DNA of 64,000 nt from Bryum argenteum. Its lineage: Eukaryota > Streptophyta > Bryopsida > Bryales > Bryaceae. The DNA is taken from the NCBI GenBank assembly GCA_037043015.1, contig CM073324.1, positions 10,065,013 through 10,129,012 of the forward strand, read 5' to 3'. The position numbers and the translations under genes are program-made. Positions 16,831 through 59,615 of the stretch are shown in pieces (the first letter of the stretch is position 1; each line of letters starts with the position of its first letter). Below the pieces are notes generated by a model that ran no database searches, was not told the origin of the DNA, and saw only the letters and a list, made by a program, of their open reading frames with translations.

Positions 16831-16970
16831 CGTTTTATAACTATACACCTTAAGTGCCTATCGCATACTCACAATACGCTTTTTGTCTTCCCTAACACAC
16901 TTAGCTAGTCTCATTTCAGGTCTTTTGGAGGTGCTACGAGGTAATTGGAAATTGTCTTAACAACATATAG

Positions 16971-16995
16971 AACGCGCAATTAAGCAATTATGCAC
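16971..16995 (+). repeat. Left terminal inverted repeat of the large transposon
   Basis: Twenty-five bases, starting AACGCGCAATTAAGC and ending ATTATGCAC, are preceded by ATAG. They differ from the reverse complement of the right end at one position (G versus A at base 4). Confidence 0.85.
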
Positions 16996-17559
16996 CCGGC
17001 TATTTAAAAGTGCACTTGGGTACTACGATGGCCATTTCTTGCAAAAATGGAATTTTTTATTTTTAAACTTGATTTTTTCTGGAAAAAAAGGTGTTTTGCA
17101 AAGAATGTTGCGTATTGTCAGAAGTGGTAATATAAAAAGACTTCTAATGGCATTGTGAACATATTTTTGGTATAAATCCATGTGAATAATACAAATATTT
17201 TTGTCCAAGGATATTTGAAATGCTTAGTATATGCTACAAATTGTGTAGATTATAGTTAATATATTTTTGGTGAGCAAAATGACGCGAGCACCAAACTGTT
17301 AATAAAAGTAGGCACCAAATTGTTCCAATGGACATTTAATAAAAATATACTTCATATTGTACTTTGTATATATGTGGTAGAAAAGTATCTAAATACACAG
17401 ATTCTAAATGTATACCAAGTTATGTATATAACTGATAATACAACTAAATTCAACCCATATGTTCATCGCAACAACACGTCTGAAAATAATCCTTGCGATC
17501 TTGTACTATCTAGTACGTATATACACTTAGAAACACCATGTGTACACAAAACACATGGA

Positions 17560-20500
17560 CTACATACTAATATCTAATGCGGCTTGCAAGCGGTCATCGT
17601 CGATAGCTTGGGTTTGCATTGCGATATACTCTAATATGTGGGCCTTCGCAGATTGGATAATGCAAATGTTGCTTGGAACCTGCACTACAAAGACATTGCG
17701 GTTTCTCCCCCGACTATGACCAGACATGATTCTTTCTGGTTCGTCCGCCCATGAAAAAATACATGCCTCTTTCTCTATCCAATCATGATTCTCCCCAGAT
17801 GGCTCCCACAATGAATCCAAACAGTTTGCATACCGTTGTAAAGAGGAACTCGGTCCGTCACCAACTCCCCCTCGAATGATTGGCCAATACCAACAAACTT
17901 TCATCTTGATTTTATTCCGGCCTTTTCCGTCTTCAATCACCTTCCCTAAATAAAATGGAACACCCTCGTGTACTTCTGCACAATCAACACTGAGGGCTAC
18001 AAATTGTCCAGAACGGATATCGGATCAAATTGGGGGAAAGGATCGTCAGTACCTTCTGATACCGCTCTTTCTTCGGTTCCATCAAAGATGTGACTGCGAG
18101 CCGTTCTTTGTGCCCTACGCACTGCTTGGTTAGGTGGCCTCTCTCTTCGATGACCAAAGTATCCTCTAGCCTCAGAATTTGGAAGCATCGCCACTATTTG
18201 GTCCACAATAGTAATCTCGTGGTTTGATTCATTTCGATCGTCAATAACATCTATTGATGCATCTACAATAGGTGATGTCTCTAATACCTCTGAAGGCCAA
18301 AGCTGTGAAGAACTATGCTCGTTGCTACGATCTTTGCTTGGGAATTCGGCTAGGTATAGTTTCAAATGTTCTGCCTCTCTTTTAGCAATAACCAATTTTT
18401 TTCCGGATGTTGGAATCTTTGAATGCACCTTTCTTTGTATGCAATAAAGTCATCCATTGCCTTCAACTCCCTTTCATCAGCTGCAAACACCTTTGCAAAC
18501 GATGGTCGTTCTTCTTTATTTGGTAGCGATTGCAACGTCTTTGTCCCTGACTCAGGTCCCCATTTATCCTTGCTATAATGTTTGTGTTGTACTCGAACCT
18601 TACCGACCCCCTCGATTGTCCATATAGAATCGCATGTGCGGCGGAAAGGTTATGCCAACCAAAGAGTCCCCCACCCGTCGATAAGTGAGGGGTTATGAAG
18701 GACTTCCAGTCCCCACACATTTCTAAGAGTCCTGCGCTAACAAACGCCTCTGTTATGGATGTACCTTGTTCTATTAGACTAAGCATTTCCTTCAATGAGT
18801 CGATGTCCGACCTCTTCAACACATTAGATATACAACTAAAGCGTTGGTCGATATCTTCGTGTGTATGGCCCACTATAAGGAAAGAGAGCTCCACCTCTTG
18901 AAAAAAAAACCCAATCCCACCAATGAAACACATAGAGCAAACATGTAAATGTTTTTATTCTCTCGTGTGCGATTATCCGCTTGAATACGTAATGTTGGAG
19001 GCAAAAGCGTTTTCTCCTCTTCACATCTCCTATCACTTGCAACAATGTCTTCACCACCTGGCTATATCATGTTTGTGGTGCGCGCCGAACCACACATCGC
19101 AAATATAAACCAATCCCATGTGCGAGGCTCCACACAAATGGGTCTTTCACAAACCGATACTCGATGTTCTTCACGGTTTGACGATTCCGGTACCATGGTA
19201 GTGTTTTGATCCATGCCATCAACAATGATGCACATGTACAACTCTGGGCTGATATAGCACGACCTCTTAAATATCCAATAATCTCTCCGTTCCTCCATCT
19301 GAATACGCAGATGCATTATAAACAACTCTTTTATTTTGATCCGAGCATCTGCATTCGTGGTTCCCTCCATGGCACATTTATATTCCCAGGAGTGATAACA
19401 CTTTGAAAACCTCGAGAATGGAGGTACCTGGACATGAGGATACCTGATGCGCCACATCCTCCGGAACGAGCTAATTAAAATGGTTTCTCCGTTACAAACT
19501 CTCTTCACCTCCTCGTTCACGTAATTGAATATATCAGACTTCTGAGTATTCATGGGCAGGAGAATAAGAGGCACCACTTCATTGTCATCCTTACGAAGAA
19601 TTGAACGATGAGGTTCGGGACAACCACTTTCGTCCACAAAATGATTTAAATGAGGCCTCTGCCACCGACATTCTAGTCTTCTCCCGGCGGGTTTGAAAGG
19701 TCATTCTGCGAATCGCCGCCACTCTTCCATATATTAAACACTCCTTCTTCATTGTTTAAACCGTCTTTGTGAATATCCAATGCCCGAGAAAGATAACAAG
19801 CATTACAAACTTGTTTGCCATCTAACTTTGTGACAAATTTATCTCGTTCCGTCCGTGTATAAAAAGAAAGCGGATTTGTCTCATCCAAGATTGAATTGCA
19901 TAAGTAGAAGCCCACGCATTATAATGCATGTCCAATAGATACCGTTTCACGAATGTCTCTCAAACAATTTTGTTTGCATCCTCCTCGCCCTATTGCCCTT
20001 TGACGCTTAGAAGAGATACCTTCGTAGATATACCTTCTCTAGAAGATGTCTCCCTGGAATCTCTCGCTTCTTCTATTTTGCATAGAATATGGACGTCGGG
20101 CCGCTCGACATTTGAATAAGCCCATCTACATGGGGCAAATCTCGGATGTTGGAAAGAGTACTTTGAGAAAATGGAGGGTTCTCATCTACGGGGTTTGAAG
20201 CTATACTATCGCGCCGAGACCTATCGGTGGATCCAGGTGTGTTGAAGTTGTCATGGAAATCAAATTCTTGTGTCAACCTCCGTGCATGTGGCGTTTGAGA
20301 CCCATTCAATACGTCCTCGCCATTTTGAATGGTGGGTTCCATGGCTATCGCACGTAGATAAGACTTGTGCCAACGGATGATCAATCCAACACACATTCCA
20401 AGACGTTCTCCCACAATCTCTCCAGTCCAATGCAATGCATCGTCTACCCTAGTGATGCGTACTGCCACCTCGGACGGGAATAACTTCGATCCATGCAATT

Positions 20501-20741
20501 GCGCGCCAGTTTCAAATGTATACTCCCTAGTTGCCAAGCCGACAACTTCTCTTCTTTCTGATAACAATTCAAATGTCCTTTCCAATTGAGATGAAATGAC
20601 CTGAGTAATACCATCTCCAGTCCGCCTTGCACGAGCTGCTCGTATTAATCGCGCTCCCACTGAACCGTTCGGATCAATGACATCGCTTTTGTATTGGGTG
20701 TTTTGATGTACTAAAGGGATTTGGAAATTGGAGCTGTCCAT
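17560..20741 (-). pseudogene. DUF7869-like transposase candidate, frameshifted
   Basis: Reading leftward from the ATG at 20,741 (MDSSNFQIPL) there are protein-like frames at 20,741-20,073, 19,915-19,673, 19,637-18,9xx, 18,933-18,463, 18,428-17,997 and 17,940-17,560. The last ends in QTQAIDDDRL and a stop. The centre holds three motifs that I associate from memory with DUF7869-type proteins: IIVDGMDQ (~19,203-19,226), QADNRTRENKN (~18,953-18,985) and FLIVGHTHEDIDQRF (~18,842-18,886). Their acidic residues could form a D-D-(E/D) RNase-H-like site; this is inference. The piece at 19,915-19,673 has a paired CNACYLS segment, perhaps a zinc-binding part. Damage seen: an in-frame TAG at 19,062, a frame change at a run of nine T (18,901-18,909), and others near 18,490. 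Introns could explain some breaks, but splice sites were not evident. Confidence 0.6.
18842..19226 (-). other. Putative D-D-(E/D) catalytic core of the transposase candidate
   Basis: The first acidic motif is DGMDQ. After about 80 codons comes QADN followed by RENKN, and about 40 codons later GHTHEDID. Between the second and third motif lies a hydrophobic strand-like stretch, YMFALCVSLVGLGFFF, then QEVELSFLIV. The order and spacing resemble the D...D...E/D layout of RNase-H-fold transposases. The frame is continuous from the first to the second motif apart from one TAG, and the nine-T run separates the second from the third. Confidence 0.5.
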
Positions 20742-22117
20742 TGTCGTTGTTGAACTAATAGGAACCTATACATTGCAAACATGTGAAAATATGTGTGTAA
20801 GCAATAGAAAATATCATTCATTCAAACGAACATATGTTCAAGGACATAAATTTTTGCTTCCAAACATGATTGTTAATGTTGGTTACTAAGTTCGTAATGA
20901 TATTATATATAATTGTTAAGATTGTTTAAAGTTGTTAAATTACTTAGGATTATCTTGTGTACTTTATTTATATATAAATTAACGGTTTATCTACCTCTAC
21001 AGACATGTGTTGGATAAAATAATACGATGCTAAGTTTTGATTACATGGAAATAACAATAATCATGTTTGATACCTTGTCCAAGACTATGTTACACCTTAG
21101 GAATTGGATTGTTTGCGTTTCATAATACATTGCTAAAAATCGTTGATTGAAATAAAAAAAGACAATGACAACATGAAATGGCGTCAAATTACTTTGTACC
21201 TATGGCAATTTCCATTATAAATCCTACATCATGCTTTGAGCGTGCATAAAATCACAAAGATGGTGGTATTGTTTAGGATAAAGGAATAATTATTGCAATG
21301 ACAATGATTATAGAAAGTTACAACTTACTTAGTTACTTATAGGTTCAATTAAATTTGCAAGAAAAAATAATATTTGCAATATTCATTGTATGATCTATTT
21401 TCATAGCGATGGATAGAATTATCATGTGTTCTTGTATGAATGCAATATATTATTGTTTGGAAAATATGGTAATTTTAAACTTTAACTTTAACTTCTACTA
21501 CATTATAAAAATGAAAGTTGAATAAAACTTGCAACCAATGATTCAATTGCACTCAAGTAGGAACAAAGTTTTATAGAAGAACAAAAAATATTAAATCAAA
21601 TTGTAACTAAATTATTCCCACCTCAATGAGTTAGCTTTATAGGGCTTAGAACCAAGTGGTGTTCACACCACATGTCCATTCTTAGACATGCTCTTCAATA
21701 GATGTAAAATATATAGACATGGAAACATACAACAAATAAACGGGAATTTAGCAATGCAAACACTCGTGCGTTAGAGATTATTCAACTAGTAACTTACATT
21801 TTGAGTCATCTTGGAATTTGAAAGAAAAAATAAATAAATAAATTTCATTTTCAGTGAATTTTAAGAATTAAAAAAATGATTCACAACACACAACAAAATT
21901 TCAAGAATTTAGTGAAACAATAACTTGTAGATTACATTAGCCTTCTACTAAAATCATTCAATTGTTTTCATAATTATAGAAAGTTTTTTAAAAAACTTAA
22001 CATACAACAAATTGCTATAATACAGCAATAAAAATACCTTCGATTAGACATCCATCAACTAAAAAATGACATAATTTTTTATTTTTTTTTAAAAAATAAA
22101 AATAAAAAATAACAAAA
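20742..22117. promoter_or_regulatory. Divergent intergenic region of the large transposon, left part
   Basis: This AT-rich DNA lies upstream of the minus-strand gene and should contain its promoter. I cannot point to a specific TATA box or operator among the many AT tracts. No ORF of note. Confidence 0.3.
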
Positions 22118-22318
22118 GAGGAGGTGGTAGAGGTGTTCGCCCGCACACCCCCTGGCCCCTGCCTTGTCCGACGCGGCATCGGCACGACACACGCGTCTGT
22201 CACAGAAACGCTGCCCCGCCTTGGCCCGCGCGCCGCACCTCGGCCGCAGGTCGGCCGCCCGCAAGGCGCGGGGCGCGGGGGTGTGCGGGCGAACACCTCT
22301 ACCACCTCCTCTTTTGAT
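22118..22318. mobile_element. GC-rich foldback insertion
   Basis: GGTGGTAGAGGTGTTCGCCC at about 22,122 is mirrored by GGGCGAACACCTCTACCACC at about 22,284, an inverted repeat of at least 32 bp including CACACCCC/GGGGTGTG. The roughly 110-bp interior is very GC-rich in contrast to its surroundings. Because of the symmetry both strands encode a protein beginning MVEVFARTPP and reaching GVRANTSTTSSF. I treat these as artefacts of the inverted repeat. Confidence 0.65.
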
Positions 22319-22361
22319 TTTCATCTGACCTCCCCGCTTCTGATCTTCTGGCACACTTGCC

Positions 22362-22555
22362 GTTTCTTCCTCCTCCGCTCTTGCTCGTGTTTTTGAAGGT
22401 CGTTGTTGCCGTTTCTTCCTCCTCCGCTCTTGCTCGTGTTTTCGAAGGTCTTTGTTGCCGTTTCTTCCTCCTCCGCTCTTGCTCGTGTTTCTGCAGGTTG
22501 CTATTGCCTTTTCTTCCTCCTCCGCTCTTGCTCGTGTTTCTCAAGAACGCTGCTA
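22362..22555 (+). repeat. Four-copy tandem repeat, about 48 bp
   Basis: Units beginning CGTTTCTTCCTCCTCCGCTC and continuing TTGCTCGTGTTT start near 22,362, 22,410, 22,458 and 22,508. The repeat keeps frames open on both strands, giving Leu/Val-rich and Arg/Glu-rich strings with no domain. Confidence 0.8.
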
Positions 22556-22634
22556 GGACGATCTGTAGAGCACTAGGACAGTTTCGTGACTTGTTGCAAC
22601 CAAAAATCTTTTTGCCGATTCTCCTTATCGCTTG

Positions 22635-22760
22635 CTGCTGCTGTACCGAATCGCTGCTTGCTCTAGTACCGAATCGATGCTTGCTCTAGTACCGAATCGC
22701 TGCTTGCTCTAGTACCGAATCGCTGCTTGCTCTAGTACCAAATCGCTGCTGCTATTGTAC
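22635..22760 (+). repeat. Tandem repeat of about 22-23 bp
   Basis: The unit GAATCGCTGCTTGCTCTAGT is repeated four to five times with one or two substitutions, for example ATCGATGC. The sequence just after (22,760-23,035) is a degenerate extension with CTGCTGTTG phrases. Confidence 0.8.
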
Positions 22761-23094
22761 CAGATCGCCGCCTGCTGTTGCTATCGAATCGATGCTTGCT
22801 ACTTGCTGATCTTGTTGCTATTCCTCATTGCTATCACCGGTTGTTGTTGCTCTTTTGCGGCGCGGCGTGCATTTTGGGTTCTTGTTCGCTCTTGTACAGA
22901 TACGCTACTATTCAAGCTGTCCACTTTGTACTCGATATGTTAAAATCTTCGTCTTCCTCCCTTCATCCTCTTTGTGGTCTTTGTTGCAGCCATGCAGCCG
23001 CCACCAAAGCCACCAAAATCCTAATCTTAAAACCTTAAACCCTACAAAAATTTAAGAATCTTTAAAAAATAGAAATAATAAAAAAATTATGAGA

Positions 23095-23160
23095 GATTGC
23101 AAGGGGTGTGCGCGCGCACACTCCTTGAAACAATCAACCAAGTGAAACAATCAACCAAGT
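23095..23160 (+). repeat. Palindromic element end of the 0.4-2.5 kb type
   Basis: CAAGGGGTGTGCGCGCGCAC followed by ACTCCTTG is a variant of the palindromic ends at 412-740 and 2085-2477. It is followed by a doubled GAAACAATCAACCAAGT. With the foldback at 22,118 it probably brackets a roughly 1-kb insertion nested in the large transposon. Confidence 0.5.
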
Positions 23161-24258
23161 GAACTCCAATAAACATCCCATTTACTATATTAAAGCCATT
23201 TCAAACGTCTGATACCCGCCCATGAGGGATACCCGCCCATATTGATACCCGTCATACATTATAATTACTTGCTTAAGAACAAGAAAAATGAAAACATTTA
23301 GCAACACATGATAGTAAAAATGTTAATGTAGATATTGTAGAACTAACATCTTTCACATACAGTCGTTTGAGACTAAAGAATATTACCTTCTTTTACGATT
23401 CCAAATTTCTAAAATTGTCTTCACTGTAAAAAGAGCATTTAACCCCAGTCAAACATGTTCGCACATTTTGGTCAAGGGAGAGAAAAAAAACACTATTTCC
23501 TACATAAAACCTATAGATCTTCATTTTAATTTTTTTTTTTTTTTCTAGCGAAAAATTTATGTGATAAATAAATTCTTATCAATCATTTTGGATTTTTATT
23601 CTAAAGCATGTTGAGTTCACAAAAGAATAAAATGTGGCATAAAAGTTTGTCAAATAATTTCAATCTCGATCCTTTGCATATTTGTTTTGAATATGCTACA
23701 CACCTTTTCCATGTCTAGAAATTGGTTTTAAGGTAACCAACATGATCATGCCAATCATGATTTTAAAGAAGTTAGACCTTGTATAGTGAATTTTTTTTAA
23801 GCCAAGTGAAATTAAAGTGTGCTAGACCACTCAATACAATTAAGCAAATGAATTATTCTTATGATTTCAAATGCTATAATATTTTAATCCTTCCGATGCA
23901 TAGTAGCCTAAAAAATTTGGTGGCTTTATATCAATGTTTATTTTAAGATTCTAGGATTAGAAGTCTTAAATTTCACTCTAAAACTAGATTTTAAAGCCAC
24001 TTTTTGATAGTGACAAATTTGAAGTGTTTCTTGAAGAATAATGGCCTAGGCTTTTCGGGGCTAAAGAGTCGTCAACCATAAAACATCTTCCACATGAAGT
24101 CATATTAGAATCAAAACAAACAAAATGGCCTATGTTAGTCTATATTCACATGAACCATGTGGTCGGATGGTGAATTTTGGTATAAGTTATCAATATTTTA
24201 TTGAATAGAAATCAAAACAATTGTCAAATAGACTCTAAATTACACCATATTAACCATT
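23161..24258. promoter_or_regulatory. Divergent intergenic region of the large transposon, right part
   Basis: AT-rich non-coding DNA upstream of the plus-strand gene, the expected site of its promoter. A short GATACCCGCCCATA repeat lies at 23,213-23,262. I see no gene and no specific regulatory site. Confidence 0.3.
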
Positions 24259-26741
24259 ATGATATTGTGTTCCAATGATGATCAGGTTGCCATGCCTCGC
24301 AACGTCGGAACCAACTGCAAAATCGACAAGACATGGGAGAAGCACGGATGGTGGATTGTAGAAGAGGACCCCTCAAAGCCTTATTTGTGGATGACGCACC
24401 AACCTTTTAAAATAAGGGACCGTACGTCAGCGTTAGGCAAAGCGTTTTGGCGAGATTCAAGCAATTACTACCCGCCCATCGTCCGACATGATATATGTGA
24501 TGTGTCCCCCGATGTCTTGATGAAGCAATGCGTAAGACTTCTCTGTCGAGACGACTCTTTCTTGCATCCATTCCGAATCCTTGCTTGCAAGTTAAGGTCC
24601 GTGAAATTTTCTCAATACCTTGCAGAAATTTTGGTGAATATCGCTCCTGCAGATGCGTGACAAATGGCGGGAGAGCATATGTCACATTGTCTAGGGTTAT
24701 CACAGGAGGATGTGGCACGAGCAATGGTTCTTATGGATGCCCATATTAAGTCTGAAGCATTACTAGAGGCGGATCCAACACATGCAACATCACAAGGTCC
24801 ACCACCAACCAGGAAGAGACGGATCCAATTCATCGTAGTTATGTTATTGGAGGTGAGTTGGATTACCAAGCACTTCAAAGATTGCACAATCATGTGCCCG
24901 TCCAGCGATCATGACCGACTCGAGCCGCTTTGTATGAAGTGTTCCTCTATCCGGAAGAGGACGTCCTTCAAAGCGCCACGACGTGAGAGAGAGCGACATA
25001 GCATCCCGGTTCGGGTGGACAATCGTCGAATGTGGCTCAAGTGGTGCGAGGTCACCGGACGAGGATCGAGGGCACGTGGTAGGGGTAGTGGGTCTACAAC
25101 CATGAGGTTTCCAACAAAGCGGGAGCATCTCTTATGATTCGAGTTCTTGGCTGAATGTATCGGCGGTGGAGGACGAGTTTCGAAAATATCGGACCAGGGG
25201 ACGAAGAGGATTGAGTCGGAACCGAGGATGGCGTTGGAGGCCTCAACGTCAAGTAAGTTCCTAGCACCGATACCTACTGAAGCAGAAATCGCGAAAGGAT
25301 CACTATGGGGGGACATTGTATTCGAGGTGAAGATCGACAAGATTATCCAAGTGGAGAGTCCTTTGACAAACCATCGGGTACTCTCTGCAAAGAGAGTTAG
25401 AGAGGTTTATGACTTTATGAGACATCCAGAGAACAAGACTTGTGTGAGCAAGTTGGTTCTTCGTCCGATCAAGTACATTGTGGATGTCACTCTTGACGAT
25501 GGTGTGGTTCGGCAAGAAGAGGTGGCATTCCCCCTCGAAAGAGCTCAACGAGAGTTCCAACGCATATTTGATACACACGGATTAGCGTCTATTCACGGTA
25601 CAACACATTCTCAGTTGTGTTGGCTTCAGGAGAGGATCATTTGGGAGCTAGTGGATGGACAACACATTGTTGCAGCCTGCAATTTTGCGAAGGAAGAGGT
25701 TGCCCAACACAAACTCTCACATGCTGAGTTTATTAACATCTTTGAAATGCGGGAGGCAACATTTGTCGTATACGATGATCCTGCATTGTACCTAGCGAAG
25801 TCCGCGCGGGTCAACAAGAAGGAATGGAATAGGACAAAATATTCCACCATGGATGAGGACTTGAGAAAGCTACGCGAGATTTGGGAGTTGTATGGGAAGC
25901 CTGATAGCTTGGTTCGTGCAGACGATGAACGCAGGGCTAAAGCTCTGGTGTGTGCGGCTAATGCAGTGCAGAAGAACCTTGTTGAGGGCAACAAAGGTAT
26001 AACAATCAAGAGGTTGGCAAAGCAGATGCATGACTTGACCATTCATGCGTGGAATCGTCGGCGCGAGTGTTACGAAGCTATCCTTCAAGTGTGCAAGGAC
26101 TACGAAGATGGCCATCTCTTTTATAGCAAGGAAGAGGAGAAGAAGTGGAAGGCGTTTGCGGACAAAGAACAACCTAGATCCTCTCTTGTGGATGTACGGG
26201 AGCATCGGAAGCGAATGACCATGCATTGGTTGAGGCCAAAATGTGGTTCCACAACCGCTTATCTACGGCTAGTCAAGTCTTGTGCGGCTAAGCCGATGGG
26301 GGTGACGACCTTGGACCTCGACAATCATATTACTTTCACGCCATCAAGGATGCGTCTAGGGATACCCGTACTATTGCAGGTGCAGTTGACCGGATCATGA
26401 GACAAGAAGCGGTCGCTAATATCACTCGTTGGTTAATGGTGTCCAACAAAGAGTGCTCACCTAATTCCATGGAAGAGTTCTTCCACATATCTGTACGGAA
26501 GTATTTTCCCGGGAGCAAGGAGCAAATTGATGCATTTGGCAAGGACTTGGCCAAAGACACAAAAGCCGCATGGGCTAAACCTACACGAGAGAAGGTGCCC
26601 AAGTTGGCAGACATAAGTGAACTTATTCCCACCTCCATCAAGGTTCACTATCAGGACATTGCAACAAGAACACATGGACAAGTGGAAGCATCGGCAGATG
26701 AGGTGGTGCCACTCACCGTCACATGGAAGTGGGTGTTCTGA
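24259..26741 (+). pseudogene. ParB/DGQHR-domain protein of the transposon
   Basis: One frame runs from 24,259 to 26,400 with only two in-frame TGA codons (24,658 and 25,135). A one-base shift near 26,230 leads to the frame continuing to 26,741. The centre of the product (about 25,310-25,680) reads like a ParB/sulfiredoxin-type fold: VKIDKIIQVESPLTNHR, then KRVREVYDFM, then LVLRPI, then WELVDGQHIVAACNFA. The last resembles the DGQHR/DGxHR signature of ParB-like and DndB-like proteins. A long helical, charged region follows (25,740-26,230), including KEWNRTKYSTMDEDLRKLRE. The extreme N-terminus (24,292-24,600), with KTWEKHGWWIVEEDPSKPYL, is not recognised. In bacteria and phages such domains bind DNA or nucleotides and are often fused to methyltransferases, and the downstream coding sequence fits that (see 26,857-28,081). 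The true start could be the ATG at 24,292. Confidence 0.55.
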
Positions 26742-26856
26742 GTTCGAAGGCCAACTCGCACCAAAGACACCGATCATCTTATGGTTCGAGCTTGGGAAGG
26801 ATTATTTCATCCTGGTGTCCGTGATTGACACAATCATACTTATGGGTTGTTGATTG

Positions 26857-28081
26857 TCGGCGTGGTGGGGGAAAAGCGTGGAGACGGTCCTTAGGAAGAA
26901 GAAGCGATTCACCAAAGTTATTGCACAATTGTCGGCGTGGATGACGGGCGTTGAACGATGGAACAAGATTCTCTTTGTTACCACCAAACGTGTTTGCTAA
27001 TGCCGAGTTGTTCGCGAAGCTCAAACTTCCCGGGTGGCACTCAACGACATGGATGTTGGGCATTTGGCGCAAACTCGGTTGATCGAGATGCCCTCAACTT
27101 TCACAGGGGTGGTCGATTCTGAAGCGGTGGAACCATTTGGAGGTGTTGTTGTTTATATGCAACACCCTGTTGATACTTCCCCCAACCAGAATTATGTTTC
27201 TGGAGATCGTCCACTACCACTTGTATTTCACGATCAATGGAGTGAGACACATCAACCGTCGGAGGGTGATAGACTCGAGCGATCGCCATCCGAGCTCTCT
27301 AGACTGGTCGATGCGTATTTGCCAATTGGTTGGGGTTTGGCTGCGTATAACATTACAACGGCCATTCCGACAATCTTTCATGGAGGTTTCCATGGATCGG
27401 AGATCATTGTCATTGATGATAGCCTAGAAAGGCTAAACTTCTTGTATACAAAGTTGTTTGTCAACTTCCAAGGACAATTTCAGATCCCTGAGATGACGGG
27501 TGCAACAAGGAGCACTAGCGTTGGCATTTCCGAGGGCGAAGATCCGATGAACATAGGTTCAGAGGAAGGCGGTAGTGACGAGGACGAGCTTGGAGATGAA
27601 GCGGATACTTCTATTCCAGCACCATACACATTGGCAAATGTACGACAGCCGCGTGAGTATAGATGCATGATGTACCTCGCCGATCATAACTCATGTGACG
27701 ACGGACTTCATTCGTCTGTGGAACCTAATGGCTTTGAGGAAGGATCAGAGATACCGGAGGTGGTTCTAGATACTCCAATTCAAACGAGACCAATGGTGCC
27801 ATCCATTCCACAATCTACAGAATCAGCGGAGACCATAGCTTTCAATGAGGCCTTCGCACCAATGATGACATTTAGAGACGGCTTCTACTATAACACGATG
27901 GCATAAAATACACTCGCCACGGTGAGCCGGCGATTCTTACACGCATTTGTGAGTCTGCGTCCATCGGTCTTCAAGATTCTATTGATCCCCAGTGTCGGCG
28001 GGCGCAATGGGATCGTATGGTACATGAGGCCTATGAAGCGCGTGCAGTAGGACAATGGAGGAGGATGATTAGAGCATCGTG
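26857..28081 (+). pseudogene. Methyltransferase-like C-terminal part of the ParB-like gene
   Basis: Protein-like sequence continues in shifting frames: 26,857-26,999 (KKRFTKVIAQLSAWMTGVER, then NKILFVTTKRV), 26,994-27,083 (FANAELFAKLKLPGWHSTTW, then MLGIWRKLG), 27,034-27,906, and 27,905-28,081, ending WRRMIRAS and a stop. A strand 'KILFVTT', an 'AELFAKL' helix and a closing 'W.RKLG' resemble the segment after the catalytic motif of amino-methyltransferases. Later SELSRLVDAYLPIGWGLAAY and then GSEIIVIDDSLERLNFLYTK resemble the 'xxLI..yt..G..V.D.f.G.G' and 'GR..I.ID.d.e' SAM-binding motifs placed after it, as in the beta-class permuted order. The glycine-rich motif and a DPPY-type motif are not visible, so it may be catalytically dead or too decayed. 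An acidic tail (about 27,530-27,620) follows. The assignment is inference. Confidence 0.4.
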
Positions 28082-28785
28082 AGATTTATAAGTAGCAAGT
28101 CAATATGATGTTTAGGTGACATGTTAGGTTTGATTGATATGTTTGAGTAAAGTATGAGATGTTTGGTTATAGTATTATGCATGTTATATTATAGTATTTA
28201 CTATCAGTTTCTAAAGTACGTTTATGAATTTTATGTATGGATTTTCATATAATATAGAGCGAGATGCTACATATTTTCTCGTTGAATAGCACATGTTGGC
28301 CTTTTATCTCTTATAAAGTATGTTTGTTGTATAAATGCCAAAAATAGTATATAAATGTCATATAGCAATGTACAACGTAGAAGTTCGTAATCAAAATTGT
28401 ATTGAATCTAAAAAGAAAGACTATAGGAAGTTCAAGGACAAAATTGAATCTTTGAAATTCTTTAAATTTCAATTTTTGCACTCCAAGACGTGACGTTGTC
28501 CTTCATATTGATCCATTGGGATTTGTATTCCAAAAAATTATATGGTACACAAAATAATAAAATAGATGTTGGCAATATTTGAATATAATAATTTGGTAGT
28601 ATTTACAAAGCAATAAAACATGATTTAGCAACAAATTTGTTAATTAAAAAAATACTATTTCTCATTAGTTTAAGTTTGGTGCCTCCACATTTAAATTTTT
28701 TTTTTTGTGTGGAATTTTTGTTGTTTTTTTTCATTTTGGAGGAAAATGTTGTTGTTTTGACATGCCATTGAGTGCACTTGGCAAA
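28082..28785. other. Right subterminal non-coding region of the transposon
   Basis: AT-rich DNA between the stop at 28,081 and the right terminal repeat. No ORF or repeat is supported. It shares only the terminal repeat with the left end. Confidence 0.5.
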
Positions 28786-28810
28786 GTGCATAATTGCTTA
28801 ATTGCGTGTT
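28786..28810 (-). repeat. Right terminal inverted repeat of the large transposon
   Basis: Twenty-five bases, starting GTGCATAATTGC and ending GCGTGTT, are followed by ATAG. A third copy of this terminus lies at 3477-3501. Confidence 0.85.
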
Positions 28811-28865
28811 ATAGAACTATCTCTTGTGCTACCTGGCAAATGAACCTTCTAACGGCTGATGGAGT

Positions 28866-29045
28866 AGCCCTTCCTATGTCCTTTGAGTTGAAGGGACTAA
28901 CACATGGAGAATTGCATCAACTTGTAGCCCTTCCTATGTACTTTGAGTTGATGGGACTAACACGTGGAAAATTGCATCAAGTCGTAGCCCTTCCTATGTC
29001 CTTTGAGTTGAAGGGACTAACACATGGAAAATTGCATCAACTCTA
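28866..29045 (+). repeat. Three tandem 60-bp units
   Basis: The unit GTAGCCCTTCCTATGTCCTT, continuing TGAGTTGAAGGGACTAACAC, occurs three times at exactly 60-bp spacing (28,866, 28,926 and 28,986). Because 60 is a multiple of three, one frame is open through all units and encodes a 20-residue repeat (VALPMSFELKGLTHGELHQL). The array starts 56 bp outside the transposon's right end. Confidence 0.85.
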
Positions 29046-44902: not shown

Positions 44903-45131
44903 AACCCTTAAAGGTCCCTTGGGGATAGTATGTACGGTGGCGTATAATTGAGATTTGCTACCAACAAGAAACTCTATACTGTGATCTTAAAAGCTTAGTA
45001 GAACCGCATGGATTTATATGTCAACTTGTTCTTTGAACTCAAATCTATTGAAGGTGTGCACTCATTCCAATACAAACAAAATACGCTGTATTCTAGCAAC
45101 CAAAATATGGTTGTTCAGACCTTTAAGGGTT
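44903..45131. mobile_element. MITE, AACCCTTAAAGGTC ends, copy 1
   Basis: The inverted ends are AACCCTTAAAGGTC and GACCTTTAAGGGTT, about 229 bp apart, with TTAA at both edges. The interior is non-coding (GTATGTACGGTGGCGTATAA ... AAAGGTGTGCACTCATTCC). A directly adjacent copy follows. Confidence 0.75.
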
Positions 45132-45353
45132 AAAGGTCCCTTGGAGATAGTATGTACGGTGGCGTATAATTGAGATTTGCTACCAACAAGAAACTCTATA
45201 TTGTGATCTTAAAAGCTTAGTAGAACCGCATGGATTTATATGTCAACTTGTTCTTTGAACTCAAATCTATTAAAGGTGTGCACTCATTCCAATACAACCA
45301 AAATACACTGTATTCTAGCAACCAAAATATGGTTGTTCAGACCTTTAAGGGTT
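45132..45353. mobile_element. MITE, AACCCTTAAAGGTC ends, copy 2
   Basis: Nearly identical to the copy at 44,903-45,131 and joined head-to-tail to it, sharing a partly deleted boundary end (GGTTAAAGGTCCC). It keeps the right end GACCTTTAAGGGTT at 45,340-45,353. This looks like a local tandem duplication rather than two insertions. Confidence 0.75.
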
Positions 45354-46900
45354 AAAGCATGTCATGCATTTGCCATGTGTGCCAAAGCTCTAGAGAGCAT
45401 GGAAGGTGCCAGATGGTTCACCATTCCCTTTGTCTCCATCTACCCTGTCATCCCATTTGCATGATCCATTATACCCATCCCGACCCAAGAATGGAACCCT
45501 CTTACTACACTGTTCTCATTCTTCCTCCCTACAGTTTACCCACTGCTCATAACTCTTTTTTTATATTGGAAAAACGTTCTAAAGATGACTTGTCTAAATA
45601 CGTACTTGAGAAAAAGTGCTTGAAAACAAGAATATAGCCAAGGGACGTTGAAAGACAGAACGCGGAGATTTGGGACATATATCAACATATTGTTGGTCAG
45701 ATTCACATAAAACTCATTCTTTACACTATATACTATTTTATACTATGAAAGTTGAATTGTAGGCTTTCCTCATATGTTTCCTACAATACCATTCATGCTT
45801 CACATCCTCTTCTACGTTAGGAATTTTGCAGTAAAGGCAAGCATGAATTCGCCCAAATTTGTAGTATATCCGCATGTGTTCTCAAATTTGCCCCAAGTAC
45901 AATTAGATAGAAGAAGCTTTCAAAAATCACCGAAGCTTGGGTTACCTAGGGATGCATTTATTTGTTGTTAATTTTTTCCTAAACAATGTCTTTCACATGC
46001 CTTTCTTATTGACAAAAATGGCCTTTGACTTTAGGTTTCGACATACCCCCATGTGGAAACTCAAACTTTTATCTATGTGTGTCAATCATATGAGGATAAC
46101 ATGTACCCAACTTGCCTAGGAACAAGAGAACAATAGTTTGAAGACCCCCATGTCATGTCTACTTCAAAGATGGTTTTTTAGATACAAGAAATGCACCCAA
46201 CTTCAGAACCATGTGCAATATGTATTTTGAGCATGTTGTCTTGATAAGAATACATGCTTTAGAAGCAAAGCCTTTTCTTTTGTTACACATATGTTAAGAT
46301 GTAATAATTACAATTCGTTGGTATCATATACACTAGTACTATAAAAAATATAAAAACAATAGTACTTAAATGATAGTTGTCACAATAATGTGAATGAGTT
46401 GTCACACACTGTACAAATTGCAATGCCAAAACTTGCTAGCTACATCAGTTTTCATTTGTATGAGTTGTCTTTTAGGCCAAGTCACCATCTTCACCATGTT
46501 GCATGTGTGTTTTGTTGCTATCTTGGTACAGAGTTAGAAAATGATCCGCAAATTTCATAAACAATTGTCCATCATTCCGATTTCATTATATATAAGGAGG
46601 TGTCCTGCCGAGTAGCGTCAAAAATGGCATTTAGGAACCAAACTTGTGGTAGCCGTCCTCACAGGACATGGCCGGCTCTGTCAACTTGCGGTGCGGGTGT
46701 TACCCGCCCATATTGAGGTAGATTGTGGTGAATCGAACCAAGGTCACCTTGAAGATACATTGAATTTGAATATGGTTTCGCATGTGCAATATGTATTCAA
46801 ATTCCATACCAATTGCTATACAATGCAATGGTTTTGCTTGTGTCATGAAAGAAAGAGAAAAAGGAAATGACGTGCTTTTTAATCGCTTGAATGTCAAGAG
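45354..46900. other. Intergenic DNA, no gene recognised
   Basis: Short frames only. A tRNA B-box-like GGTTCGATTCA lies on the minus strand at about 46,727-46,737, but no matching A box or cloverleaf was found. Confidence 0.4.
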
Positions 46901-55167: not shown

Positions 55168-55291
55168 AAAATAACTTAGTGTTCAAGTTTTGCACCAATC
55201 ACCACACTAATTAAGTAGATTAGTGGTAAATCACCATCAAATATGAAATTGTTTTTTTCCTCTTGGTAGAAAATTATAATGAGCGTAATAT

Positions 55292-56090
55292 TGACCAATA
55301 CGGAGGGTAAAAGTATTGGTCAAAAGTAATATAATTTGTTCATGTAATATAAGTCATTATAACAATATCCTACCTATTTAGTGTAGTCAGAACGTGATAT
55401 TTCATATTTCCACTGCGCTTCCCACGAGTGTTTTTACCAAGAGTGTCATAATCTACCATGCTTAATGGAATGTTTGGTGGAGATCAATTTCCATCGTGAC
55501 CAATACAGAGGGTAAAAGTATTGGTCAAAAGTAATATAATTTGTTCATATAATATAGTCATTATGAAAATATCCTACCTATTGAGTGCAGTTAGAACGTG
55601 TTATTTCCACTACGCTTCCCACGAGTGTTTCTACCTAGAGTGTCATAATCTACCAAGCTTGATGGAACGTCTAGTGGAGAATAATTTTCATCTTGACCAA
55701 TACCCAGGGTAAAAGTATTGGTCAAAAGTAATATAATATGACATGTAATATGGTCATTATAACAATATTGTACCTATTTAGTGCAGTCAGAACGTGATGT
55801 TTCCACTACGCTTTGCACAAGTGTTTCTACCAAGAGTGTCATTATCTACCATGCTTGATGGAATGTCTGGTGGAGATCAATTTCCATCTTGACCAATACA
55901 GAGGGTAAAAGTATTGGTCAAAAGTAATATAATTTGTTCATGTAATAGTCATGATGACAATATCGTACCTATTTAGTGTAGTCAGAACGTGATGTTTCCA
56001 CTATGCTTCCGACGAGTGTTTGTACCAAGAGTGTCATAATCTATCAGGCTGGATAGAACGTGGGGTGGAGATCGTGGTGGAAATAGTGTA
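55292..56090 (+). repeat. Four tandem units of about 200 bp
   Basis: Units start with GACCAATACNGAGGGTAAAA then GTATTGGTCAAAAGTAATAT, near 55,292, 55,498, 55,695 and 55,893. Each runs through CAGAACGTGAT, TTTCCACTACGCTT and AGAGTGTCAT. A more diverged unit is present in block D copy 2 (58,200-58,400). Confidence 0.85.
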
Positions 56091-56559
56091 CTTTTGTAGA
56101 GAAAGTTGATGGTTGTTCATTATTACTAATTGATGGTGTTTCGGTGGAGATCTTGGTGGATACACTACACTTATTTACTTACTATAGTAAAATTTGATGG
56201 TTTTCAGCAACAGCGATTGATATTGTTTTTGTGGGGATTGTGGTGGAAACAATGCATTTGTGTAGTGAAAGCGGATGGTTATTCACTATTAGTGATTGAT
56301 ATTGTTTTGGTGGAGATTCTATTGGAAATAAGGCACCTCTGTAGTAAAATTTGATGGTTGTTAATTGCTACTCATTGATGTTGTTTTGGTGGAAATTGTA
56401 GAGGATATACTACACTTCCTTACTTGATGTAGTGAAAGATAATAGTTGTTCATTGTTACTTATTGAAGTTGTTTTGGTGAAGATCGTTGTGGATATACTA
56501 CACTTTTCCATCTTTGTTGTGACCATGGACTTGCCCACCTTTGTAGTGACAATTGCTCT

Positions 56560-56930
56560 TACTTAGAGCATTCCCACCCATCGCAAACTGAACTGAATAT
56601 TGGATGTATAGTAGTTCAGTTCAGGGCGAAAATGCCCCACCAATCGGCAAAACCCTTGCAGTGAATTACTATTCATCCATTTTAATCAGTTTGACTTGCA
56701 AAACCAAGCCCTTTTGCGGGGAAGTGCATTGACCTGAACTCACAATAAGACAAGGCTAATCTATTTGAGGAGGAAAGTGCGGGGCTTTGTCACCGAGTAG
56801 ACATTACTCACAAAAACTCAATCACGAATTCACGGGTGGGGCTGCAATTGCAAAGTGACTATTCAGGTTGATGACATTCAAGTTTGCAGGTTGCAGGTTT
56901 CCAGTTCCGGGCGCCTATGGGTGGTTATTG
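56560..56930. other. Unique insert inside block D copy 1
   Basis: Between GACAATTGCTCTTACTTAG and GGTGGTTATTGTCATTG lies about 370 bp unlike the surrounding GTGGAGAT units (for example GAGCATTCCCACCCATCGC, and GGGCGCCTATGGGTGG at its end). It is probably a small element insertion. The ends GAGCATTCCCACCCAT and CGCCTATGGGTGG contain the partial inverted match ACCCAT / ATGGGT. Confidence 0.35.
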
Positions 56931-57389
56931 TCATTGATTGGTTTTGTTCTAGTGGGGGTCATGGTCGACATATTACACTTCTCCGTCACTCTAGTGACAA
57001 TTGATGTTGTTCATTGTGATTTATTGGTTTTCTTCTAGTGGAGATTATGGTGGATATACCAAACTTCTCCACCTATGTAGTGAGAGTTGACATTTCCACC
57101 TTTGTAGAGTCACTATTGATGTTTTTCACTGTCATTATTTGATTTTTTTTTGTTGTAGATTGTAGTGAAAAAAACTACATATGTGTGCTAGAAGTGACAA
57201 TTGGTGTTGTTGATTGTCAATAATTATGTTCTTCTCACACATAATACAACTATTCATCTCTTACCCAATGGGAATGTGAGTTACCGAGACACAATTAGTT
57301 TTAACTAAGTAATTATAATTATCTTATGATATTCACGGCAAGTTAAATAACTACTGACTATGCATTGATAGTAATTTAGGAATATGTCT

Positions 57390-57905
57390 ATATAATTAAA
57401 ACCCTTGTAGGATCTATGAAACCTATGAAAATGCTTGACTTTCCATATGGAGGTATGCCGAAATGTGAATACAAGGCTAAACTTTAATGATAAAAATGGA
57501 ATGTGAAGAACTGTCGGATTGAAAATCTGATTGGTAACATCATGCCTTAGAACCTACTTTATAAGCACAAATTACAAAAAAAAAAGAAAAAGAAGTAAAG
57601 TTTCAAATATTTATGAATTTATTAGTTATTGCAATTTATTTGATTTTGGGCAAGTTTTGAGAATAAAGAGCATACTCAGCAGTTAGGCAATTATGGGTAT
57701 ATTTCAAATAGTGTTTTCAAACTTTGAATGTGAATATATCCTAAAGTAAGAAGAAAATTGAAGCATGAGATGACTTTTCGGAAAGGTATGTGAAAATCCT
57801 AGAACTTGGAAAAGCTTCAACTCTATAAAATCTATATTTAGTAACTAAGAGCTTGACCAAAGTCAAATCGGCCACAATATGGCTCTTTAGAGCATTAGGG
57901 GTTAA
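57390..57905 (+). repeat. Dispersed repeat family C, copy 2
   Basis: It matches 46,905-47,480 in order and orientation (CCATATGGAGGTATGCCGAA; GTGAATATATCCTAAAGTA; CCAAAGTCAAA). It ends with GCATTAGGGGTTAAAC, a TTAACCCC-type terminus. It separates the two block D copies. Confidence 0.55.
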
Positions 57906-58065
57906 ACTTTAGAAGTATTCACTCTTGAAGTTTGTTAGTGCTATTAGTGTAGCCTCAAATCTTTTCAACGGCTCAACCATAGTATATCCTCCTACATCCT
58001 CAAAATCTGCCCAAAAACAAATTAAGAGAATTGCCCTAGCCTAATTCCACTCATTGATGAATAAC

Positions 58066-59615
58066 TAGGTGTTGGAGTTTACACCAAGCACCACGCTAAT
58101 TAGATAGATTTGCGGTAAATTGCCATCAAACATGAAATTGATTTTAGGCTTAATAGAAAATCTACTGAGAAATTTGAATTCCATTACTACTGATGAATGT
58201 CCATCTTGATTAATATATATAGAAGGTGAAAGTATTGGTTAAAAGCAATATATAATTTGTTAAGGTAAAATAGTTTGTAAAACAAAATTCTACATGTTTA
58301 GTGTAGTGGGAAAGTGTAATAATTGCTCTAGGCGTTCTAACGGTATAATTATATACTGAGAGTGTCTTATTCCACCAGTGTTAATAAGTGAATCTTCTAG
58401 TGGAGATTGTGGTGAAAACATTTCACTTCTATAGGAAAGTTGATGGTTGTTTGCTGCTACTAATTGATGTTTTTTTGGTGGAGATTGATTGATGTTGTTT
58501 TGGTAGAAATCCTGGTTGATATTGTTTTGATAGAGATCGTGGTTGATTGCCTTACTCCTACCAATTGTTGTTATCTTGGTGGAGATTCAATGATAACATA
58601 TTGGTGGAGAGTGATGTTGTTTTGGAAGATATCATAGTGGATATACCTCACTGCTACTGACTGATATTGTTTGGTGGAGACTGGTTGATTTCGGTATGGT
58701 GGAGATCGTGGTGTATATATCTCAATGCTATTGATTGATCTTATTTCGGTGAAGACTGGTTGATGATGTTTTAGAAAAGATCGTGGTCTATATACCTTCC
58801 TGCTATTGATTGATTTTCTTTTGGTGAAAATTATGGTGGAAACTTCTCTACTTGTTATAGTGAAAGTTGATGGTTGTTCAGTGTTATTGATTGATGTACA
58901 TTTGGTGGAAATTTCACGTGCTGCAGTGAAAGTTGATGGTTCTTTATTGCTACTGATTGGTATTGTTTTGGTGGAGATTGTTGTGGATGTACTACACTTA
59001 TTCGCTTGTTCAAGAAAAACTTGACGTTGTTCACTATCATTGATTATTTATTTTATGGTTGAGATTGTGGTAGATATACAATACTTTTCCACCTATGAGT
59101 GACTATATATGTTATTTCTTGTCATTCATTGGTTTTTATCAAAAAGAGATCGGGGTGCATATGTAACACTTCTCCACTTTTTGTAATGACAACTTACTTC
59201 TCTACCATTATAGTGACAATTGATATTGTTTAATGTGATTCATTCATTTTCTTCTTGTAGAGATTGTGGTGGATATACCACACTTCTCCACCTTTGCTGT
59301 AACAATTGACTTCTTTGCCTTTATAGTGACTATAGATGTTTTTCATTGTCAATTATTATTATTTTATTATTATTTTCCCCCCTTCTAGTAGAGATAGAGA
59401 TCATGGTGAATGTAGCACAAATTTTCAATTTTGAAGCAACAATTTATGTTTTTTATTGTCACTCATTATGTTCTTCTAAAACACTACCCAATTATTATTT
59501 TTATATGTGATGAGAGTGTGAGAGTCACAGAGACATAATTGGTTTTAGCTAAGTAGTTATAATTATCTTGTGTTACCTAGGGTAAGTAAAATAACTAATG
59601 ACTACATATTTATAT
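58066..59615 (+). repeat. Block D, copy 2
   Basis: It shares start (CACCACGCTAATTAGATAGA), internal GGTGGAGATTGTGGTGGATA units and end (TTTTAGCTAAGTAGTTATAA) with 55,168-57,380. It is shorter, mainly through fewer tandem units. No gene. Confidence 0.65.

Follow-up and report, generated by a model that had tools for sequence, protein, structure and literature searches.

A two-gene DNA transposon of the moss Bryum argenteum, with a DUF7869 protein as probable transposase and a conserved divergent partner

The stretch analysed here, referred to as the window, comprises 64,000 nucleotides of the Bryum argenteum genome (assembly GCA_037043015.1, contig CM073324.1, positions 10,065,013 to 10,129,012), and its positions 16971 to 28810 hold an 11.8-kb element that is a decayed copy of a genuine, multi-copy transposon. 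The element carries two divergent genes: gene 1, which encodes a DUF7869 protein that is probably the transposase, and gene 2, which encodes a large partner protein. The element is mobile as a unit and generates a 4-bp target-site duplication, and both genes are under purifying selection. Most likely it is a cut-and-paste transposon that codes for two proteins, one of them a probable aspartate-triad (DDD) transposase, and it probably belongs to the Sola1 group.

Terminal repeats and target-site duplications

The element is bounded by the following features.

16967..16970, no strand: left target-site duplication, ATAG, a direct match to the right copy
16971..16995, plus strand: left terminal inverted repeat, 25 bp, gene-1 end, whose core recurs 159 times in the host genome
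28786..28810, minus strand: right terminal inverted repeat, 25 bp, gene-2 end
28811..28814, no strand: right target-site duplication, ATAG

An earlier note on this DNA had proposed 25-bp inverted ends identical at 24 of 25 positions and an ATAG duplication at both edges, and both were verified at these coordinates. Further copies with identical ends and a 4-bp duplication were also found. The core of the end, a 21-mer, has 159 exact matches in the host genome (78 forward and 81 reverse; 258.8 Mb, 25 contigs) and none in the reversed genome, which served as a control. Among 100 listed core places, 39 end pairs were picked by eye, of which 31 were tested and 8 left out; those tested form a first set of ten long copies plus the window copy (n = 11) and a second set of 20 others. 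The duplication is perfect in 28 of the 31 pairs (9 of 11 in the first set, 19 of 20 in the second), and the other three match at three of four positions. The adjacent outward 4 bp match at two positions at most in all 20 copies of the second set, and of 930 comparisons between left and right 4-mers of different copies among the 31, only 13 gave agreement. Duplicated target sites are A/T-rich and their sequence varies from copy to copy. Homologous ends are present in three of the four other families fetched, two of which have a perfect duplication (TAAT and ATGA); the 1.7-kb stretches fetched for the fourth showed no end.

Evidence of movement

The copy at 12.17 Mb of contig C1 sits inside a high-copy repeat, which we take, by eye, to be hAT transposase-like, and other copies of this repeat show the uninterrupted site. 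The search for its empty site gave 279 candidates at first look, of which 40 were scored, and in all 40 paralogues the joined flanks run straight across the junction with 90-92% identity. Two of the empty-site paralogues were aligned and have a single site from which the element is absent. A second copy has empty sites in 37 of 41 rows besides its own two flanks, at lower identity.

Shorter forms of about 4.5 kb make up, by spacing, 6 of the 20 end pairs of the second set, and all six have a perfect duplication. In the single sequenced form (4511 bp, AATA/AATA) both ends are retained, but the DUF7869 core of gene 1 is missing, as is almost the whole of gene 2. Forms of this kind were therefore presumably mobilised in trans.

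Nine long copies from the family of the window copy share 91.9-95.6% identity with it, and a relative at 21.3 Mb of contig C5 (the C5 copy) shares 69% across the alignable 3.7 kb. C-to-T change per site, measured in the gene-1 half of ten copies, is 0.030 at CG, 0.031 at CHG and 0.018 at CHH positions; this excess at CG and CHG fits methylation by the host, although it falls short of proof.

Gene 1 and its DUF7869 domain

The coding features of the window copy are as follows.

17560..20741, minus strand: gene 1, decayed, DUF7869 protein and probable transposase, from tblastn pieces with a relative of 1125 amino acids (aa); outer limits approximate
18676..18906, minus strand: part of the PF25273 (DUF7869) core, including the GHTHEDIDQ motif (E 1.1e-18; residues 17-93 of the open reading frame 18463-18954)
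24247..28082, plus strand: gene 2, decayed partner protein, from tblastn with a 1402-aa relative to 27660; 3' end approximate, placed by eye
25225..25923, plus strand: ParB/DGQHR-like segment with a DGQH motif, from an alignment row; motif only

The earlier note's description is borne out: the transposon is complete, and its two divergent genes are decayed. Compared with the C5 copy, in which both are uninterrupted (1125 aa and 1402 aa), each of them has stops and shifts of frame. In tblastn with these two proteins, gene 1 of the window copy lies in pieces across three frames with several stops, and gene 2 likewise.

Gene 1 is a clear member of PF25273, a family which itself has no stated function, so the DUF7869-like motifs first noticed by reading are confirmed by a profile match on the minus-strand gene. 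The window piece scores 68 bits and the uninterrupted relative 171.7 bits (E 1.8e-50 over 1125 codons), with a curated cut-off of 26. PF25273 matches number at least 151 in the host genome, with 150 of 1812 candidates scored, and belong to several families; none of 14 control genomes has any. Three aspartate motifs, DGMDQ, QADNC and HEDIDQ, are conserved in gene 1, except that the loci L016 and L018 are without the first stretch and L015 has YNC. These motifs may constitute a DDD triad by which gene 1 would perform catalysis, and gene 1 is probably the transposase. Relatives of gene 1 outside the host were not confirmed in viral contigs or prokaryote genomes by pattern-based scans, which have limited reach, and a profile search of PDB sequences gave matches at chance level only. 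The name DUF7869 was not found in the open-licence literature searched. The locus L108 holds a minus-strand open reading frame at 2148-2882 that resembles, by eye, a Tc1/mariner transposase; a further DUF7869 gene is located downstream of it.

The partner protein encoded by gene 2

Uninterrupted gene-2 frames of 1402, 1405 and 1411 codons are present in three elements, the first of these lengths being that of the C5 copy. A ParB/DGQHR-like domain had been proposed for this protein. The resemblance in the DGQH motif stands, as the motif is invariant across seven aligned gene-2 rows (a further decayed copy, L043, has NGQH), but no profile library supports homology to ParB, and the ParB-like reading is a motif-based lead.

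The order of conserved blocks in gene 2 resembles, by eye, that of a beta-class methyltransferase, and DCR is found in all seven rows at the place where the methyltransferase motif DPP was expected. In the hhalign comparison, the set contained Escherichia coli YhdJ and four phage methyltransferases, with no ParB fusion among the five. Ten column-shuffled controls gave probabilities of 0.05-0.42, a range that includes the real comparison, whose best alignment nevertheless falls on the expected block. Given this range and DCR in place of DPP, homology of gene 2 to methyltransferases is unsupported at the sequence level, though the proteins may still be related in fold. Fusions of ParB and methyltransferase domains exist in prokaryotes, and the block order of gene 2 is, by eye, similar; gene 2 has no tblastn match in phages, and the comparison set did not include such a fusion. 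Relatives outside the host were not confirmed in viral contigs or phages by tblastn and pattern-based scans of limited reach, and the profile search of PDB sequences with gene 2 also gave chance-level matches only.

Pairing of the two genes and selection

The two genes form a conserved unit, as the earlier note supposed, and other families also carry both. Thirty gene-2 loci were obtained by merging 52 rows, with 33 of 641 candidates scored, and 17 of them have a listed PF25273 place at most 30 kb away; all 17 pairs are divergent. Random placement on the same contigs, three of which have approximate lengths, gives a mean of 0.98 pairs and a maximum of 4. Gene 2 is also present in two of three distant DUF7869 families, where its main stretch is 24% and 30% identical, and these two families had been selected for long gene-1 frames.

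For gene 1, comparisons inside the family group give ratios of nonsynonymous to synonymous substitution rates (dN/dS) of 0.142, 0.155 and 0.190, and a near-identical pair from another family gives 0.287; the values for gene 2 are 0.261, 0.268 and 0.295. One pair of elements could be compared for both genes, and its dS values are nearly equal (0.535 for gene 1 and 0.546 for gene 2), so the two genes travelled together.

Classification and role of the partner

The Sola1 assignment draws on shared features and published descriptions. Sola elements are described in passages of PMC10741241 as having a DDD transposase, 4-bp duplications and terminal inverted repeats reported at 11-1124 bp, with Physcomitrella named as a host, and Sola1 appears for Physcomitrella in a list in PMC9033089. 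The element described here has the 4-bp duplication and 25-bp terminal inverted repeats. The Physcomitrella elements are likened to it by description, as Sola of a moss, but the passages on them in PMC9033089 and PMC10741241 mention no second gene. The closest description is that of Sola1-1_Ec32 from the brown alga Ectocarpus, a large Sola-1 element in which, according to the section of PMC12477816 that presents it, a ParB-methyltransferase gene lies on the strand opposite the transposase. An opposite-strand second gene is likewise seen in the window copy, the C5 copy and the 17 pairs. The two systems differ in size (21.5 kb with a 1104-aa protein in Ectocarpus, 11.8 kb with about 1400 aa here), in the methyltransferase domain, which is predicted for the Ectocarpus protein and unsupported here, and in host lineage (PMC12477816, same section). 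The best reading of gene 2 is that it would correspond to the Ectocarpus ParB-methyltransferase gene.

That the pair is an undescribed system, as the earlier note thought possible, is doubtful. The Ectocarpus pairing (PMC12477816, as presented there) makes the gene pair not unprecedented, and together with moss Sola it means that this kind of element was already known. Neither the pair in a land plant, with its distinct partner, nor conservation of the partner across families was found in print in the open-licence literature searched.

Several results weigh against the classification as a two-protein Sola1 transposon. Gene 2 has no match in any profile library searched, those listed being at chance level, and its comparison with methyltransferases is null (hhalign probability 0.16, E 0.37). 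A paralogous empty site was not found for two of the four copies searched, including the window copy, and one of the three other families with homologous ends shows no matching duplication. Thirteen of the 30 gene-2 loci have no listed DUF7869 place within 30 kb, which may be because only 150 of 1812 DUF7869 candidates were scored, and the 4.5 kb fetched from the third distant DUF7869 family yielded no gene 2.

The strongest competing explanation, which has somewhat less than an even chance, concerns gene 2 only: it would be an accessory that alters how the element is methylated or packaged in chromatin, by anti-silencing or self-marking, outside the transposition machinery. Such a role has been proposed for similar algal ParB-methyltransferase proteins (in the relevant part of PMC12477816), and the C-to-T excess at CG and CHG relative to CHH fits a methylated element. 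The retention of gene 2 under selection together with gene 1 in diverged families speaks against it, although an anti-silencing factor could be retained too.

That the element forms a superfamily of its own, separate from Sola, is improbable. The link to Sola is made here through features, not through direct comparison of transposase sequences, and 4-bp duplications and D-rich triads are shared by other superfamilies. This separation is opposed by the duplication, the conserved D motifs and the occurrence of Sola1 in a moss (PMC10741241 and PMC9033089, in the passages cited) and, above all, by the same unusual type of opposite-strand partner in the Ectocarpus Sola1 (PMC12477816, as described there).

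It is very unlikely that gene 2 marks the element by encoding an active DNA methyltransferase. This activity is predicted for the Ectocarpus protein in the section cited of PMC12477816, and one of 15 gene-2 members has a single, chance-level match to the rRNA adenine dimethyltransferase model (E 0.074); the lack of any profile match of note, the null hhalign result and DCR instead of DPP argue against it. An accidental assembly of genes and repeat ends, for which no supporting point was found, can practically be dismissed in view of the recurrent end cores, the perfect duplications, the empty sites and the conserved pairing.

Proposed mechanism

In the two-protein transposon proposed here, the DUF7869 protein would cut at the 25-bp ends and join them to A/T-rich sites with a 4-bp stagger; the duplication and the empty site are the observed part of this step. 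The gene-2 protein would bind DNA through a ParB-like domain, perhaps at the subterminal boxes or within the spacer that separates the genes, and might help to assemble the transposition complex or protect the element from silencing. We lean slightly to gene 2 as part of the machinery rather than an anti-silencing accessory, because it is kept in diverged families. A more doubtful history is that a ParB-like protein, formerly fused to a methyltransferase, lost the enzyme and became a standing second part of transposition that is conserved across diverged families; it would load on repeats of the element and hold the ends together or shield the element from silencing. The loss of a methyltransferase in this history is a guess.

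With these results DUF7869, a domain that had no stated function, becomes a probable DDD transposase whose ends and target duplication are defined and for which empty sites are known. The ParB-like partner, which is termed accessory in algae, is in this genome conserved and selected as part of the unit, and the uninterrupted copies make its necessity for transposition directly testable.

Spacer and subterminal boxes

The noncoding features of the window copy are as follows.

20742..24246, no strand: spacer that separates the two divergent genes; it contains one inverted repeat as well as tandem arrays
22108-22159 / 22270-22321: spacer inverted repeat
22357-22539: spacer array, 49 bp x 3.7
22627-22800: spacer array, 23 bp x 7.6
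17010..17017, plus strand: subterminal GTGCACTT box, conserved among seven elements at their gene-1 ends; a candidate protein binding site
28772..28779, minus strand: subterminal AAGTGCAC box, gene-2 end, with similar, partly diverged boxes in six other gene-2 ends

Both families examined have spacer arrays: the units measure 49 and 23 bp for the window family, and the C5 copy (L037/L038) has a 28-bp unit x 7.2. The units of the two families are unrelated in sequence, and binding of the gene-2 protein at the arrays is therefore only a guess.

At the gene-1 end, the window family has a single GTGCACTT inward of the 25-bp repeat, and other families have a second box, which is at times diverged. 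A single AAGTGCACT-like box lies at each gene-2 end, and two of the seven such boxes are diverged. The boxes at both ends may serve as protein binding sites.

Other repeats in the window and the host genome

Beyond the element, a 60-bp unit is repeated three times at 28864-29043, beginning 50 bp past its right end. The repeat that was hit by the insertion at 12.17 Mb of contig C1 has 36 of its 40 listed copies on this contig (44.1 Mb), where many shorter PF25273 matches (profile 53-192) are also located; contig C1 may be a repeat-rich or a sex chromosome. Further along the window, a 222-bp unit occurs twice at 44908-45357 with 97% matches, which suggests a recent duplication, and the region 55291-58828 holds a 196-bp unit x 3.9 followed by several arrays with common TTGATGTTGTTTTGG-like units.

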